A DNA stretch of 10,313 nucleotides from Deltaproteobacteria bacterium (GTDB lineage: Bacteria; Bdellovibrionota_F; JAHFAK01), in NCBI GenBank assembly GCA_023250585.1, contig JAHFAK010000091.1:1-10313 (forward strand). Reading direction: 5' to 3'. How positions within the stretch are numbered: the stretch's first letter is position 1; each line of letters begins with the position of its first letter. This document shows positions 2-10,160 of this stretch, one piece after another. Position numbers and translations under genes: made by a program. The notes below the pieces were generated by a model that saw nothing but the letters and a program-made list of their open reading frames with translations, did not search any database and was not told the origin of the DNA.

Positions 2-274
2 ACGGGAAAAAAACAAGGAGTACGAATCAGTGTCTATGCTGATCCTGATGAGTTTTTGCACCATGCATCTCAGTATCGAAATGATACGCCTATTTATATT
101 GATTCACATTTAAAAGATGGCAAAAAAGGAGAGATCGTGAGCAAAGAAATTAAAGCCCGAGGTTTTACCACAATCTATCTTGCTACGGGCTCATCACCGG
201 AGGAATTTGGTGAACTTCCATGGATCACAAAGATTGTCGGCAAGAATCCACCCTGGTTTGAGGAGACACTATGA
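2..274 (+). CDS. C-terminal receiver domain of a truncated signalling protein, probably a hybrid histidine kinase (5' end outside window)
   Basis: The frame is open from base 2 to the TGA at 272-274, so the 5' part lies outside the window; a TTG at 56 is just an internal codon. The 90 visible residues look like the second half of a receiver domain. There is an acceptor-type Asp in PIYID (Asp codon 101-103), a beta-4 IYLATG with the usual Thr, and a terminal VGKNPPW whose Lys fits the conserved receiver lysine. The end aligns well with the last 80 residues of the hybrid kinase at 2907-5258: LPWITKIVGKNPPW against LLPWITGVIDKNPPW, and GFTTIYLAT against GFTKVFVTA. Unlike that paralogue, this copy keeps the acceptor Asp. 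The downstream gene starts inside its stop codon (ATGA), so the two are translationally coupled. That the missing part is a kinase is inferred from the paralogue. Confidence 0.8.
   Translation, partial: TGKKQGVRISVYADPDEFLHHASQYRNDTPIYIDSHLKDGKKGEIVSKEIKARGFTTIYLATGSSPEEFGELPWITKIVGKNPPWFEETL
259..265 (+). promoter_or_regulatory. Ribosome binding site for the DHp mini-protein
   Basis: The purine run GAGGAG lies within the last codons of the upstream gene, about six bases before the ATG at 271. It fixes the start of the mini-protein and makes the later ATG at 289 unnecessary. Confidence 0.6.
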
Positions 275-474
275 ACCATAAAAACCATATGAGAGAAGCA
301 GTACATGGAGCGCGAGGATCATTGAATCCTATCGTTGGATTTTTTAACCTCATTGACGAACAAAAACTTACTCACGATGAGAAAGAGCTTTATGATGCCG
401 CTCGAATAAGCATCAAAAAAATCGAACGAGAACTTGATACCTTAAGAATGCTTATAAACGAAGAAGACCTGTAG
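271..474 (+). CDS. Stand-alone HisKA-like (DHp) mini-protein, 67 residues
   Basis: The ATG at 271 overlaps the stop of the preceding gene and has GAGGAG about six bases upstream, so this start is well supported. The protein reads as a helical hairpin. His12 begins an H-box-like run (HGARGSLNPIVGF), with Arg at +3, Leu at +6, Ile at +9 and Gly at +11 as in the HisKA family. A short loop near residues 31-36 follows, then a second amphipathic helix (about 37-64) of the HisKA alpha-2 type. There is no ATPase domain and no room for one. The residue after His is Gly, where autophosphorylating HisKA kinases have Glu or Asp, and the usual Pro at +5 is Ser, with Pro at +8. It may act as a dimeric phosphotransfer protein (compare Spo0B or Hpt proteins) or as a decoy for the upstream kinase; this is inference. 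Its 3' end overlaps the convergent aminotransferase gene by 23 bases. Confidence 0.75.
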   Translation: MNHKNHMREAVHGARGSLNPIVGFFNLIDEQKLTHDEKELYDAARISIKKIERELDTLRMLINEEDL

Positions 475-2906: not shown

Positions 2907-5258
2907 TTAATTTATCCGTACCCAAGGAGGATTCTTATCAATAACACCAGTAATCCATGGAAGTAAATGAATTTTATCTGGATCATCGGCGGTTACAAAT
3001 ACTTTCGTAAATCCATAGTCGGTAATCGCTCGATATAATGTGTGAATGTACTGGTCTTCTGAAACACGTTCTCCTATATATACGGGAACATTACGATCAA
3101 TAGTCTTTGCGTCTAACACAAAATCCTCGGCTCGAGAATAATAGCAGACCTCTTTATTATGCTCTTGGGCCGAAAGTTTCCAGTGAAGCTCAAGACTATT
3201 ATCTCGTCCAATGAATATGGCATCGTATACTTCTCGAAGATGAACCTCGATGGGCACAAGATATGCAAGTCCTTTAGGAAGCAATCTTACCCCTAAAGTC
3301 TCACAACGCTTTTGTATTACCGAGTCCTCACAATGGCTCGTAACGAGAATGGACTCTCGGCCAATAGAGTGTTTCTCTATAACATCAAGGCCAGTTTCTG
3401 GCTCACCGATCAATTCATAGTCACTTAAGATAAGGCATTTTGGAAATCGCTGAGCCTTATACCACTCTGAAAAACTTCGAGCGGTGGTAAAGTGTAGAAG
3501 TCGGATGTCTCCATCGGCAAGGTCGTAATCACGAAATCGCGTCTTCCATATATCATGAATCGATTGATCATCATCGAGAATTAAAATGTTCGTTCGAGGA
3601 TTCACCATAATAGAAGGTAAAAACCATGCTGGCGATTCTGCACGTTTAAATACCAGAGTTACTGTCGTGCCTATGCCAACTTCAGATTCAATACGAATAC
3701 ATCCTTTCATCTTCTCCATTGTTTCTTGTGCATGAGCTAATCCAAGTCCTGAGCCATGCTTTTTGTCAAAGGAAACACCTCGATCAAAGACTGTATCGAT
3801 GCGATCGCGGGGAATGCCTTGTCCCGTATCTGCAATCGCTAAAATAACATCTGTTTTCGTAGCACTTAAAGATATCGTCACGGTCCCAGTATCTTTTAGA
3901 GCCTCCACCGCATTATTAACAAGATTCGAAATAACGCGTTTAAACTCTACGGGTTCAATAGCAGCAAATGCTCCATAGGATGACTCATCAAAGTGTTCTT
4001 CAATGACGACTCCCTGTCGATCACGATATTGTGTTCTCTTTTCTGATATAACATTTTCAGTAAGACTCGAGAGCAATTCTACACGAGATGGTTTACTTCC
4101 AATCTTTGGTAGTGCTGTTTCAATAGTCCGCTCTTTCATCTGTGATAAATTATTCACAATATCCTGAATCCGCTTTGCCGAGCTTCGAAGCGATATCCTC
4201 TCTGCTTCAGGAATCTTCTGACTCATCTTTGCAATCATCATCGTCAATGCAGCTAGTGGTGATTTAATGTCATGCGCTACTTGCGCTGCGATTTCGATTA
4301 ATCTTTCTGAAACTACTTTACTCCTTTTTTCTTCTTCTAATCTACTTCGCTGACTATGCATCTCAAGCAATGCATTAGCCACTTTCTTAAATAGCGGATC
4401 TTTAGGAATGCTGTCTTTGAAATTCTCATCTTCTCTATTCGAAACATGAGAAACAATCTTTATTAGTTCATTCACTGGCCTCTTAAGGCTATTGTAAAGT
4501 AAAATGGAAAAAATAAATAAAATACAACCAGCAACTATCATAATAGTTATAAAATCTTTGCGAATTAACATGAAAGTTCTTGAAATAGGGTCCGAATAAG
4601 TAAATTTTATCCCTAATCCGTAAATAGGAAACACTCTTTTGGTTCTATTGGTTTCTCTTGATGAATCTGTAACATATAATATAACTTTAGGTTTAAAGTG
4701 AGAGTAATTAAATGTTATTTCCTTGTACGCATTTTCAATTACATTAATAATCGATTTTAAAGGACAAATACCAATTAAGTAACCTGTTAATACCTTTGAG
4801 TTGATATTGTAAAAAGGTTTTATATACATTACATGATTCTTCTCATACTTTATAGGATTTATATTAAAATCATTACTATCAAAATGAGTAATCAATGTAG
4901 TTAACGCTTCGTCCATAACCCTAGAAACATTACCTTTGGAGTCTATAAGTATAATGTTGAGTGGTTCTAAATCATTATCAAGTTGATCTATAACTTTATT
5001 AAACTGATCAAACATTCCAAATGTAACTGCTACCTCTGGGTAAGCAGTATTTGTAAGAAAATTAATAAGCCTAAATTTTTCTTCTATTACTAATTGAATC
5101 TTGCTCGTAAATTTTTCATTTATTTTTTCTAATTCTTTTCTTTCTTTAAATACAACTTCTCTATCTAAAGAAAGATACTGCACCGTTCCCACAGCCATAA
5201 TTGATACTAGAACTACACCAACGAAAAGAACGAGATTTTTAATAACATAACTATTCAT
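2907..5258 (-). CDS. Membrane hybrid sensor histidine kinase with Cache-like sensor, HisKA, HATPase, one receiver and a terminal degenerate receiver
   Basis: This 783-residue inner-membrane kinase has a TM helix at about 8-28 and a periplasmic sensor at about 30-233. The sensor shows Cache-like strands (IILIDSKGNV 102-111; LTGYLIGI 157-164). A second TM helix lies at 237-257, with a short HAMP-like linker and coiled coil to about 325. HisKA carries His329 in AHDIKSPL. The ATPase has the N-box (NLVNNAVEAL 445-454), DTGQGIP (477-483) and GSGLGL (502-507). Receiver 1 (about 556-670) has Asp562-564, acceptor Asp613, Thr640/Ser641 and Lys662, so it looks functional. The final 110 residues form a second receiver-like domain, homologous to the protein ending at 274, in which the acceptor position reads YIG (Gly729) and the acidic pocket reads FIGRD (683-686). 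It therefore probably cannot be phosphorylated there. The gene follows the binding-protein gene by 24 bp, suggesting LuxP/LuxQ-like ligand relay. The sensor part is far more AT-rich than the kinase part. Confidence 0.95.
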   Translation of the reverse strand: MNSYVIKNLVLFVGVVLVSIMAVGTVQYLSLDREVVFKERKELEKINEKFTSKIQLVIEEKFRLINFLTNTAYPEVAVTFGMFDQFNKVIDQLDNDLEPLNIILIDSKGNVSRVMDEALTTLITHFDSNDFNINPIKYEKNHVMYIKPFYNINSKVLTGYLIGICPLKSIINVIENAYKEITFNYSHFKPKVILYVTDSSRETNRTKRVFPIYGLGIKFTYSDPISRTFMLIRKDFITIMIVAGCILFIFSILLYNSLKRPVNELIKIVSHVSNREDENFKDSIPKDPLFKKVANALLEMHSQRSRLEEEKRSKVVSERLIEIAAQVAHDIKSPLAALTMMIAKMSQKIPEAERISLRSSAKRIQDIVNNLSQMKERTIETALPKIGSKPSRVELLSSLTENVISEKRTQYRDRQGVVIEEHFDESSYGAFAAIEPVEFKRVISNLVNNAVEALKDTGTVTISLSATKTDVILAIADTGQGIPRDRIDTVFDRGVSFDKKHGSGLGLAHAQETMEKMKGCIRIESEVGIGTTVTLVFKRAESPAWFLPSIMVNPRTNILILDDDQSIHDIWKTRFRDYDLADGDIRLLHFTTARSFSEWYKAQRFPKCLILSDYELIGEPETGLDVIEKHSIGRESILVTSHCEDSVIQKRCETLGVRLLPKGLAYLVPIEVHLREVYDAIFIGRDNSLELHWKLSAQEHNKEVCYYSRAEDFVLDAKTIDRNVPVYIGERVSEDQYIHTLYRAITDYGFTKVFVTADDPDKIHLLPWITGVIDKNPPWVRIN

Positions 5259-5282: not shown

Positions 5283-6347
5283 TTAATTGTTAAATAAAAT
5301 ATTTGATACTCCTGCATAGGTCAAAATACTATAAGGAATTTCAATAGCTAAGTTTTTAGCACGATCTCTATTAATAACGAGTGAAAGCGGATTTTTTCTC
5401 CGAATAGAGTATTCTTTATTCTCATTATTTTGAAGTAATCTTTGAAACAACTCCTTAGCACTATAAGAACCCATTTCTTCTGCAGAAATGGCAAGGGATA
5501 TTAGTCGCCCTCCCTTTACATTAAAAACAGCACATCCTACATCAAGAAATTTTGTATTTTCATTTACCCACTTATCAATCTGCTTATATGAGACATACTG
5601 ACCTTTTTTATCTCGATAAGTAAAAAATGCTACAAAGACAACAACGGTTTTTTTAGGATCAACTCTCTTAAGACGGGCTTTTAGTCGTTCAAAGTCAGTA
5701 TCCACAAACTCATCGATTTTTTTTATCCCGAGTGTTTTTAAAGAAGAGTCTTTGAGTAATTGGTCCTTAAAGTCCTTGAGCATATATTGTCCCGTAATAC
5801 TTGTTTCACTTATTAAGAGGACCTTCTTAATTGTTGGTCTCAAATGTTTGACGATCTTTATTACCGGAGAAATGTTATGGCGCTCAAGAGAACCGACGAT
5901 ACCTTTTTCTCCATTAACATAGCCATAATCTTCTATTTTTCCATTAATTCCAGCAACGCTTACTAAAGTATTCTTTGTCTTTAAATAAGTTAAAAGGCCT
6001 TTTGCAGCATCATCATCAGTAAGTATTACTGCCTGAGGACTCAATTGAGCTATTTTCTTCTTCGCATTGTGAATAGCTTTTTTTATTTGCTGTGATTGAC
6101 TGCTTTTCTTTGTATCTAAAAATATTCTCTCAATCTTCCAGCCCTTATTGGCAAGATGATATTCACTGAAGGCTTTTACAATTCCTTTATCTTCTTCAGC
6201 AGTCCACTCATAATCCATAGCATAACTATGAACTACCAATAAAACTTTCTTTTCAAGAAAAGGGGCAGTGCTTTTTCTACTCCAAGTATTCTTTAGGGGA
6301 GTTATTAAGAATAGTAGTATTAAAAGGTTAAAGGTGCATTTATTCAT
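5283..6347 (-). CDS. Periplasmic substrate-binding protein (ABC_sub_bind-like), likely sensor partner
   Basis: This 354-residue protein has an N-terminal signal peptide: hydrophobic FNLLILLFLITPL at 6-18, with cleavage probably near residue 23. The mature start KVLLVVHSYAMDYEW (34-48) and the acidic VILTDDDAAKGLL (107-119) match binding proteins of the ABC_sub_bind type, a two-lobed periplasmic-binding fold; VAGINGK (131-137) and VLLISETSITGQ (176-187) look like further strand-loop elements. There are no permease or ATPase genes nearby. Its neighbours are a methyltransferase, ending three bases upstream, and a hybrid kinase, starting 24 bases downstream, so it is more likely a signal receptor presenting a ligand to the kinase than a transport component. 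That role is inferred from context. The ATG at 6347 lacks a strong SD at normal distance, in keeping with translational coupling to the methyltransferase. The ligand is unknown. Confidence 0.88.
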   Translation of the reverse strand: MNKCTFNLLILLFLITPLKNTWSRKSTAPFLEKKVLLVVHSYAMDYEWTAEEDKGIVKAFSEYHLANKGWKIERIFLDTKKSSQSQQIKKAIHNAKKKIAQLSPQAVILTDDDAAKGLLTYLKTKNTLVSVAGINGKIEDYGYVNGEKGIVGSLERHNISPVIKIVKHLRPTIKKVLLISETSITGQYMLKDFKDQLLKDSSLKTLGIKKIDEFVDTDFERLKARLKRVDPKKTVVVFVAFFTYRDKKGQYVSYKQIDKWVNENTKFLDVGCAVFNVKGGRLISLAISAEEMGSYSAKELFQRLLQNNENKEYSIRRKNPLSLVINRDRAKNLAIEIPYSILTYAGVSNILFNN

Positions 6348-7377: not shown

Positions 7378-8577
7378 TCATAGGTACTTCGCTGTTTTGA
7401 TAATTTCTAAAACACGATTGATTTGGGCTTCATTGATGTCAAGATGAGTAACTGCTCGAATCTGATTTGTATTATAAAGCTTAACCAAGACACCGTGTTT
7501 GCGAAGGTTTTCGACGAAGCTCAGAGAGTATGTCTCCTGTATAGTAAAATTAACAATATTGGTTTTGGGAAAGGGCTGTACTTGATAACCAAGAGCTATT
7601 AATCCATGTGCAAGTCGTTCTGCATTAGAATGATCGATACTCAATTTTTGAACATTGGTTCGGAGTGCAACGAGGCCTGCGGCAGCCAATATCCCTGCTT
7701 GACGCATACGACCACCAAGCAAGGTTCTGAACTTACGAATGTGGTCTATAGTTTCTTTGTCTCCTACAACCATAGAACCAACAGGTGCACCGAGCCCTTT
7801 CGAAAGACAGAACATGACCGTGTCGAAATGACGAGCCCATTGGGCTACAGAAATTCCTGTGGCAACAGCAGCGTTGAAAAGCCGGGCTCCATCTAAGTGC
7901 AATTTAATGTGATGTTTTCTGGCAGAAGCAGAGATCTGCTCGATGTACTCAAAAGGAAAAACGATGCCACCAGCAAAGTTGTGGGTATTTTCTATAACAA
8001 TGAGACTTGGCTTCTGATTATGACTGTCAGTGTCCTGTAGAAACAACTCAAGATCACTCTCTGTAAAAAGCCCATCATGACCGAGCTCCACGATTTGTAC
8101 TCTGGATAGCTTTTCAGTCGATTCACGTTCTCTAGTCACAATATGGGCGTCTTTTACAGCAAGTAAGATATCTCCAGGACTCGTTTGAGCCAAAATAGCA
8201 GCTTGATTAGCCATTGTACCAGAGGGCATGAAAACGGCAGCTTGTTTTCCGAAAAGATTGGCAACTTCAGATTCCAATTGATTGACTGACGGATCTTCTC
8301 CATACCCGTCATCGCCAACAACTGCTGAGGCAATTGCTCCCCGCATCTCTTTTGAAGGACGCGTCACCGTGTCGCTTCTCAAATCGATTACTTCAAAAAC
8401 TGCTTGTTCCTCTTGAATTGATCGATCTACTCTTCTATCTTTTGGCTCGAATTTCATATCTTGTTCTCCGGATTTAAATATATGTTCACATCCATCATTA
8501 TGGTTACCAAGAGCATAACAGATATAGTTACAACTAAGTATAATTTCTATCGTAGTTATTAATGTGAGGTACTTCAT
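7378..8577 (-). CDS. ltaE: Low-specificity threonine aldolase-like PLP enzyme with N-terminal extension
   Basis: Residues 64-399 match fold-type I threonine aldolases, which cleave L-threonine or allo-threonine to glycine and acetaldehyde. Motifs are IDLRSDTVTRP (64-74), GDDGYGEDP (88-96), IENTHN (195-200), HLDGARLFNA (227-236) with Asp229/Arg232 for PLP, CLSKGLGAPVGS (257-268) with Schiff-base Lys260, and MRQAGILAAAG (291-301). Where E. coli LtaE has HNYLFEAGG, this protein has HIVTRERES (145-153), so the substrate may differ. The family normally begins at IDLRSDT; here about 63 residues precede it, including a signal-like hydrophobic stretch (4-24). An internal ATG at 8457 (Met41) has GGAG eight bases upstream and a clearly better SD than 8577, so a 359-residue cytoplasmic form is a serious alternative. 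The extension is also much AT-richer than the body. It is first in the likely operon with the methyltransferase, binding protein and kinase. Confidence 0.85.
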   Translation of the reverse strand: MKYLTLITTIEIILSCNYICYALGNHNDGCEHIFKSGEQDMKFEPKDRRVDRSIQEEQAVFEVIDLRSDTVTRPSKEMRGAIASAVVGDDGYGEDPSVNQLESEVANLFGKQAAVFMPSGTMANQAAILAQTSPGDILLAVKDAHIVTRERESTEKLSRVQIVELGHDGLFTESDLELFLQDTDSHNQKPSLIVIENTHNFAGGIVFPFEYIEQISASARKHHIKLHLDGARLFNAAVATGISVAQWARHFDTVMFCLSKGLGAPVGSMVVGDKETIDHIRKFRTLLGGRMRQAGILAAAGLVALRTNVQKLSIDHSNAERLAHGLIALGYQVQPFPKTNIVNFTIQETYSLSFVENLRKHGVLVKLYNTNQIRAVTHLDINEAQINRVLEIIKTAKYL

Positions 8578-8783: not shown

Positions 8784-10160
8784 TTATTTCAACCCAAATT
8801 CCTTAAGTTTTCTCGAAAGCGTAGCAGGAGAGGTTTTGAGGAGTTTTGCACATTCTGCTTGATTGGTACATTTTTGCAATGCTTCTCGAAGAACTGATCT
8901 TTCTACATTTTCCGCTACGGAATTAATTCCATGAATTGTTGCTTGTTCACATAGTGTAGCAATAAAATCTTCATTCGAGAGTGGTTTTCGTACCTCACGT
9001 GTCAGCAGTTGCGGGGGAATATCAGCACACGTGATCTTTCCTGATCGCTTCAGTGCAATCATTGTCTTAATAACATTTTTGAGTTCTCGAACGTTTCCCG
9101 GCCATGGATAACTTCGAAATACCTTTCGTACCTCTTCGGCACATTCTACCTGACTTCCCATCGTAAAATGATCGATGAGAAGATCAATGTCTTGCGGGCG
9201 TTCTCGTAATGGAGGAATCGTCACCTGCATGCAGGCGATGCGATGATATAAATCAAGACGAAATCGCTTTACCTTTACAAGAGCATCAAGATCCTCATTC
9301 GTAGCCGCAATGACTCTGCACTGTATCTTACGTGTATGGTGAGATCCCACACGTTCTACCTCACCCTCCTGCAGCACTCGCAAGAACCGTGTCTGCATTT
9401 CACCATTGAGTGTACTGATCTCATCTAAAAATATATCTCCACCGTGAGCAAGCTCGAACTTTCCAATACGATCTTCGGTGGATCCCGTAAACGAACCCTT
9501 CTTATGACCAAACAACGTCGATTCTAGTAATGTCTGAGGAAGTGCAGCGCAATTGACTACTACAAAAGGTCGATCAAGGCTACCTAATCCATGAATATAG
9601 CGAGCAATTAATTCTTTCCCTACACCAGACTCACCGGTAATGAGAATATTAATGGCTTCATTGCCGTTAATATAATTAAGACGAGAAAGCGTGGAGAGTA
9701 AGCGAGGATCTTCGGTCATGAATGAATACTCAGTGGTTGATAGAGCAATAACATTACGAAGGCGCACAATGTCTTCCTGGTATTTTTTATTCTCGGCAAT
9801 AAGACGAATGCGTTCAAGGATTTCATCAAAGGTATTACTCTTTGATACAAAATCAACAGCGCCTGAAGCAAGTGAATCCTGAATAGTCTTGGAATCATCA
9901 TGGCCGCTGAGCATCACTACATAAGAAGGTACAGGAGAATTCTTAATCTTTGAAAGAAGCGAGAATCCTCCATAGGATGATTTACCAAGGCCGATGTCGA
10001 GAAGAACAAGATGATAGGGATATTTTTGTAATGCTTCTTCTGCTTTCGGGAGTGAATGAACGTGATCAACGAAAAAGGCTTTATCTAAATGGTCTTTCAA
10101 CGAATGGGCATATGAAACATCATCTTCTACAATGAGTATACGAAACTTCCCGTCTTCCAT
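8784..10160 (-). CDS. NtrC-family sigma-54-dependent response regulator
   Basis: This 458-residue protein has three classical parts. The receiver (about 6-120) has Glu12/Asp13/Asp14, acceptor Asp55, Ser85 and Lys107. The AAA+ domain (about 150-375) has Walker A GESGVGKE (176-183), GSFTGS (222-227) in place of the canonical GAFTGA loop that contacts sigma-54, Walker B DIFLDE (242-247) and arginine-finger candidates in FRLDLYHR (300-307). The C-terminal Fis-type helix-turn-helix is at about 432-456 (NQAECAKLLKTSPATLSRKLKEF). It should be phosphorylated by a histidine kinase and activate sigma-54 promoters. The start at 10160 has GGAGG seven bases upstream. It is separated from the kinase gene by three genes, so it may serve this kinase or another one. 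It is divergent from the gene at 10307, whose upstream region contains a -24/-12-like element. Confidence 0.96.
   Translation of the reverse strand: MEDGKFRILIVEDDVSYAHSLKDHLDKAFFVDHVHSLPKAEEALQKYPYHLVLLDIGLGKSSYGGFSLLSKIKNSPVPSYVVMLSGHDDSKTIQDSLASGAVDFVSKSNTFDEILERIRLIAENKKYQEDIVRLRNVIALSTTEYSFMTEDPRLLSTLSRLNYINGNEAINILITGESGVGKELIARYIHGLGSLDRPFVVVNCAALPQTLLESTLFGHKKGSFTGSTEDRIGKFELAHGGDIFLDEISTLNGEMQTRFLRVLQEGEVERVGSHHTRKIQCRVIAATNEDLDALVKVKRFRLDLYHRIACMQVTIPPLRERPQDIDLLIDHFTMGSQVECAEEVRKVFRSYPWPGNVRELKNVIKTMIALKRSGKITCADIPPQLLTREVRKPLSNEDFIATLCEQATIHGINSVAENVERSVLREALQKCTNQAECAKLLKTSPATLSRKLKEFGLK

Follow-up and report, generated by a model that had tools for sequence, protein, structure and literature searches.

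In the usual view, the carrier in a multi-step phosphorelay is either an Hpt domain or else a pseudo-kinase, Spo0B and ChpT being examples. Could less suffice? A small gene near the edge of a bacterial contig raises the question. Its product, P0001, looks like the dimerization and phosphotransfer (DHp) hairpin of a histidine kinase and little else, and it is encoded directly behind a receiver. Is it a working phosphotransfer protein, an accessory of the kinase upstream, or a relic?

The gene and its surroundings

The window—the whole stretch of DNA analyzed, an entire contig of 10,313 bases—belongs to a genome estimated to be 96.7% complete. P0001 occupies positions 271..474 (+) and is classed as a DHp-like hairpin protein of 67 amino acids (aa), a candidate histidine phosphotransferase, from its sequence, a PDB search, a DHp HMM and a predicted structure. 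An AGGAG ribosome-binding site (261..265, +) stands five bases before the ATG, and the start codon overlaps the stop of the upstream gene in an ATGA (271..274, +; TGA at 272–274). The translation contains the stretch H12-G13-A14-R15-G16-S17-L18-N19-P20-I21-V22-G23, in which His12 (codon 304–306, +) is the candidate phospho-acceptor by structural and sequence register. The sequence bears out the preliminary description on several counts: the reading frame, the His12 motif, the ATGA coupling, the want of an ATPase domain in a 67-aa product predicted to be hairpin only, and a Gly in place of the acid after the His (H-G-A-R-G). The last bases of the gene overlap those of a class-III aminotransferase gene that converges on it, and no room is left behind P0001 for a lost ATPase domain.

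Upstream lie the last 90 aa of a kinase-family gene, the C-terminal part of its second receiver, REC2 (2..274, +), cut by the contig start. The fragment keeps the phospho-acceptor Asp in IYIDSHL, a Thr in LATG and a Lys in VGKNPPW. The earlier statement that the coupled gene ends in an intact receiver therefore stands for this C-terminal part; because the contig begins inside the gene, the N-terminal Asp pair of the receiver falls outside the window. No response regulator gene directly adjoins P0001 in the window, its immediate upstream neighbor being the receiver-bearing gene. An NtrC-type response regulator (REC–sigma-54 AAA–Fis HTH) is encoded at 8784..10160 (−), and is a possible candidate for the final phosphate acceptor. 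At 7378–8577 (−) is a gene for a threonine-aldolase-like (beta-eliminating lyase) protein whose N-terminus resembles a secretion signal, unusual for such an enzyme.

A DHp-like hairpin

Curated models are silent on P0001: it matches nothing in Pfam at E ≤ 10, including HisKA (PF00512) and Hpt (PF01627), and nothing in NCBIfam, so HisKA membership is not readable from such models. Among 177,635 distinct PDB sequences searched with phmmer, just two match at E ≤ 10, and both are histidine-kinase DHp domains (KinB, 3d36, E 0.019; 7n0e, E 1), with His12 aligned on the H-box. Against an HMM built from 49 DHp domains excised from the loci we retrieved, P0001 scores 8.8 bits, a score that 10 of 10,000 control shuffles reach. 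Its likeness to HisKA is weak, yet above chance.

Sequence relatives are scarce. Among 59 genomes there are weak matches only, several of which fall on kinase DHp domains with the register kept; the genome contigs, plasmids and phages searched contain no relatives, and the collections searched no orthologues, the genome set including one other member of the phylum to which the window's genome belongs. Profile comparison with the DHp sequences of the same genome's own kinases gives no significant similarity.

Structure prediction is more telling. AlphaFold2, run on the single sequence without an alignment and as a monomer, models an antiparallel two-helix hairpin (helices 3–29 and 35–64; pLDDT 90.7) with the candidate phospho-His in helix 1. 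In Foldseek the most probable match to this model is the kinase DHp 7n0e (prob 0.94, TMq 0.85); ERS1 (4mt8) reaches 0.91, and a designed bundle comes close behind the kinase DHp matches. Ungapped VIA-align superpositions place His12 on residue 353 of ERS1, 424 of RetS and 23 of ShkA, which we take to be their phospho-acceptor positions. The aligned range of CpxA starts at 237, so His12 falls at about residue 248, and His248 is the confirmed phospho-histidine of CpxA. GacS residues 282–348 align without gaps onto all 67 residues of P0001 (Z 8.8, rmsd 1.2), and His12 coincides with residue 293, the GacS phospho-histidine (PMC4866733). Helical hairpins are common in fold searches, so Z values of 8–9 say little by themselves; the agreement of these registers on one His is the stronger point. 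Hence the free-standing HisKA/DHp hairpin first proposed finds backing in the predicted fold, the His register and the above-chance likeness, and none in the curated profiles.

The catalytic residues are reduced. The HisKA motif is H-[E/D]-x-x-[T/N], in which the acid serves the kinase reaction and the Thr/Asn the phosphatase reaction (PMC3510030); P0001 has Gly at both of these positions, +1 and +4. Kinase activity of CrdS is lost in the E372G variant, and its phosphatase activity requires N375 (PMC3510030). A role in transfer only would fit these data. What is left in P0001 is a His that could take a phosphoryl group from a receiver and hand it on.

The kinase family and the missing Hpt domain

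The upstream fragment matches the last receiver in one family of membrane-bound hybrid kinases, and ends with the conserved C-terminus of that family, GKxPPW/F; in motif it is nearest to REC2 domains from Legionella. A complete, paralogous member of the family, P0003, is encoded in the window (2907..5258, −), and is organized, by Pfam and motif comparison, as HisKA–HATPase–REC1–REC2. Its REC1 motif is intact, its REC2 has no phospho-acceptor Asp, and no DHp-like mini-protein follows it. What does follow it directly (2590–2859, −) is an 89-aa reading frame with no Pfam match; a stretch within it, DKNGNGRLDIFE, is similar to the calcium loop of an EF-hand. Upstream of P0003 is a gene for an ABC-type substrate-binding protein (5283..6347, −). 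Of the three Legionella plasmids examined, two likewise have a gene of this kind before the kinase.

Several hybrid kinases of the P0003 family are encoded by the window's genome. In those on contigs C5 and C153 the REC2 Asp is gone and no mini-protein adjoins them, whereas the receiver before the 67-aa gene keeps its Asp. An intact REC2 does occur with no mini-protein next to it, in another gene of the same genome (C101), at L077, L079 and L080, in G034 and in the genus of G346. In P0003 and a paralog (L023, 928–2961) the REC2 fold is kept and the Asp is gone (VYIGERV and LYIEEEF, respectively), suggesting that such domains are receivers turned into non-phosphorylated modules. Other kinase genes of this family in the window's genome end at contig edges or are broken within a shared HisKA stretch, LLIRGAVQRIDDIANDLASKKK (L029; L042, 1–942; L044, 898–1719). 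The near-identical HisKA repeat probably split the assembly at these places, and the gene upstream of P0001 may belong to one of them. Duplicated and broken kinase genes, in the genome or in its assembly, are also seen on contigs C34, C64 and C160.

Pfam Hpt finds no match at E ≤ 0.01 in the window's genome, and at least one in each of seven comparison genomes. With several family hybrid kinases and no Hpt match, a carrier of another type is to be expected, and within that genome P0001 is the one candidate seen.

Small proteins in the same slot elsewhere

Using the receiver pair as bait, we found 27 loci, mostly from Legionella. A protein of 72–75 aa directly follows the REC–REC kinase in 18 of 20 Legionella-group loci (L060–L079), mostly with an ATGA overlap at the junction and sometimes with a short gap. 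H11-D12-x-x-N15 is invariant in the nine members aligned, and dN/dS is about 0.06–0.3 for most pairs, which signifies purifying selection. In nearly all loci carrying a mini-protein, a convergent gene for a receiver-bearing regulator adjoins it (44–100% identity to P0008); nothing in the window's genome matches this regulator. The model of the Legionella mini-protein is a longer, generic hairpin for which the fold search shows no preference for DHp, and against the 49-domain DHp profile the Legionella proteins do not clearly beat their shuffles.

Two genomes of one phylum, not that of the window, offer a different arrangement. In G386 and G179 the last receiver is a separate gene, its neighbors encoding a DHp protein and a regulator of the NtrC type. 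The DHp protein of G386 is 81 aa long, DHp only, and ATGA-coupled to the regulator; that of G179 is a 225-codon reading frame with a DHp and an ATPase domain that appears degenerate. The two DHp domains are homologous (34% identity; raw score 129 versus a shuffle mean of 25), and the regulators are 56% identical. To judge from the sequences, then, the same gene slot is filled by a hairpin-only form in one genome and a ChpT-like form in the other. We considered the NtrC-type regulator of the window as an ortholog of these regulators and rejected it: at about 33% identity it is no closer than other NtrC proteins. Stand-alone receivers of about 86–111 aa that match the hybrid kinases' last receiver occur at L102 (5214–5549, −), L104 (4700–4960, −) and L121 (15009–15329, −), in genomes where the family kinases end after REC1.

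Gene pairs comparable to the one in the window thus exist in Legionella and in other bacteria. The similarity of P0001 to the Legionella mini-proteins (by profile comparison) and to the G386 and G179 proteins is not significant, however, and their occupying a like slot may reflect convergence. Sequence does not establish homology of P0001 to any of these proteins, and what they have in common with it is the slot and the His. We suggest, tentatively and with rather more doubt than conviction, that hairpin-only phosphotransferases form a natural class that has arisen more than once, serves REC–REC hybrid kinases, and replaces Hpt in some genomes.

What P0001 might do

On balance, P0001 is probably a DHp-type histidine phosphotransferase, like Spo0B and ChpT in function, cut down to the bare hairpin. 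Two copies would come together in a four-helix bundle. The membrane kinase would phosphorylate its own receiver, the phosphoryl group would pass from the receiver Asp to His12, and His12 would then donate it to a response regulator, at its Asp. The phosphorylation of His12, the direction of flow and the identity of the acceptor are all inferred. The phosphotransfer reading gains support from the register of the His, from the loss of the +1 and +4 residues, from the recurrent pairing of this kind of receiver with small DHp-like proteins, and from the genome's want of an Hpt domain. Of the two functions initially put forward, a mini-phosphotransfer protein and a heterodimerizing inhibitor, positive evidence has accrued to the first and none to the second.

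An inhibitor or, more broadly, a modulator would work by pairing the hairpin of P0001 with the DHp of the upstream kinase, and so block or tune autophosphorylation, much as RetS acts on GacS, or Sda, a small hairpin, on KinA. The best structural relatives of P0001 include the RetS–GacS DHp complex, and RetS, whose DHp is able to pair with that of GacS, provides a precedent, although RetS is a full hybrid kinase rather than a stand-alone hairpin. Expression coupled to that of the kinase would suit a subunit, and Gly at +1 a non-catalytic partner. Such a protein has no need of a His placed precisely where a phospho-acceptor would be, yet P0001 has one, and in the Legionella proteins it is invariant. 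Moreover, in G386 and G179 the DHp gene is accompanied by those for a regulator and a separate REC2, and not directly by a kinase gene. We regard modulation as unlikely.

P0001 might also act as a sink, or damper: His12 would take the phosphate of REC2 and lose it by hydrolysis or back-transfer, and the pathway would be shut off with nothing relayed. The window, with no regulator gene directly adjoining P0001, agrees with this, and REC2, since it stands alone in other genomes, could be a side branch. But a regulator does adjoin the mini-protein in nearly all the Legionella loci that carry one, as well as in G386 and G179, and P0001 has no +4 Thr/Asn for phosphatase chemistry; a sink is decidedly improbable.

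That P0001 is an unrelated helical hairpin whose likeness to HisKA is coincidental would explain the want of a curated family match, a shuffle test that amounts to just about 1 in 1,000, and a fold of a kind that searches commonly return. It would leave to chance that sequence and structural registers point to the same His, and that the gene comes straight after a receiver of the type that recurrently neighbors DHp-like mini-proteins, and we hold it to be very unlikely. Scarcely credible, finally, is the idea that P0001 is what decay has left of a complete histidine kinase and is retained by chance, the outcome that the preliminary description would have taken as fatal: kinase genes are indeed duplicated or broken in this genome or assembly, and a degenerate ATPase domain persists in the comparable slot of G179, but P0001 has its own ribosome site and a precise ATGA coupling, the gene before it runs to the family's conserved C-terminus, the convergent gene behind it leaves no space for an ATPase domain, no specific match links it to its own genome's kinase DHp sequences, and the Legionella counterparts are under purifying selection.

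Known systems compared

Spo0B, ChpT and PhyT are degenerate kinases that work as histidine phosphotransferases, and Spo0B and ChpT, which are dimeric, resemble the carrier proposed here in having a DHp fold, a His phospho-acceptor, no working ATPase, and the role of go-between from a phosphorylated receiver to a response regulator (PMC9981736, PMC5898713). They differ in keeping a degenerate CA domain, which is found in the G179 protein only and is absent from P0001 and the Legionella and G386 proteins. If the class is real, G386 and G179 would show the ATPase domain absent in one lineage and present in the other, in the same slot.

Hpt proteins (PF01627), such as LuxU and YPD1, have the multi-step relay role proposed for P0001, and H-x-x-[K/R]-G-S locally resembles their motif. 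On account of this HxxRGS likeness we considered P0001 as an Hpt and dropped the idea: Hpt is a monomeric four-helix bundle, and DHp agrees better with both the downstream L18-N19-I21-G23 pattern and the prediction of two helices.

Similar in size and hairpin fold is domain A of EnvZ, a DHp isolated as a piece some 67 residues long (5b1n is a structure of the DHp); this, however, was made in the laboratory and is not the product of a natural gene. A DHp in isolation is capable of phosphotransfer, and domain A keeps the +1 Glu and the +4 Thr.

Stand-alone HisKA proteins are already an existing catalog category. The ‘phosphotransfer proteins’ of P2CS are defined as HisKA without HATPase or receiver (PMC2716373)—by definition the domain content of P0001—but the bin rests on domain hits and would miss a Pfam-negative protein like this one. 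A survey of cyanobacteria counted a few stand-alone HisKA proteins (PMC9953108). In the literature searched we found no description of hairpin-only carriers paired with REC–REC kinases, an absence that is no proof. Such a carrier in nature, if that is what P0001 is, would be a minimal form of the phosphotransfer step, and since standard profiles miss proteins of this kind, the relays of many genomes may be misread as having no such step.

Legionella, with its conserved module of sensor kinase, 72–75 aa protein and regulator, opens the idea to direct testing in culturable bacteria or with purified proteins. The module is also carried on conjugative plasmids. On Legionella longbeachae plasmid pB1445CHC_150k (L053, 5372–8700) the kinase and the regulator are annotated as several broken pieces, and the gene for the 75-aa protein is whole. 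On the Legionella plasmids bearing this module, csrA is also present, a few kilobases from it (L052, 682–906).
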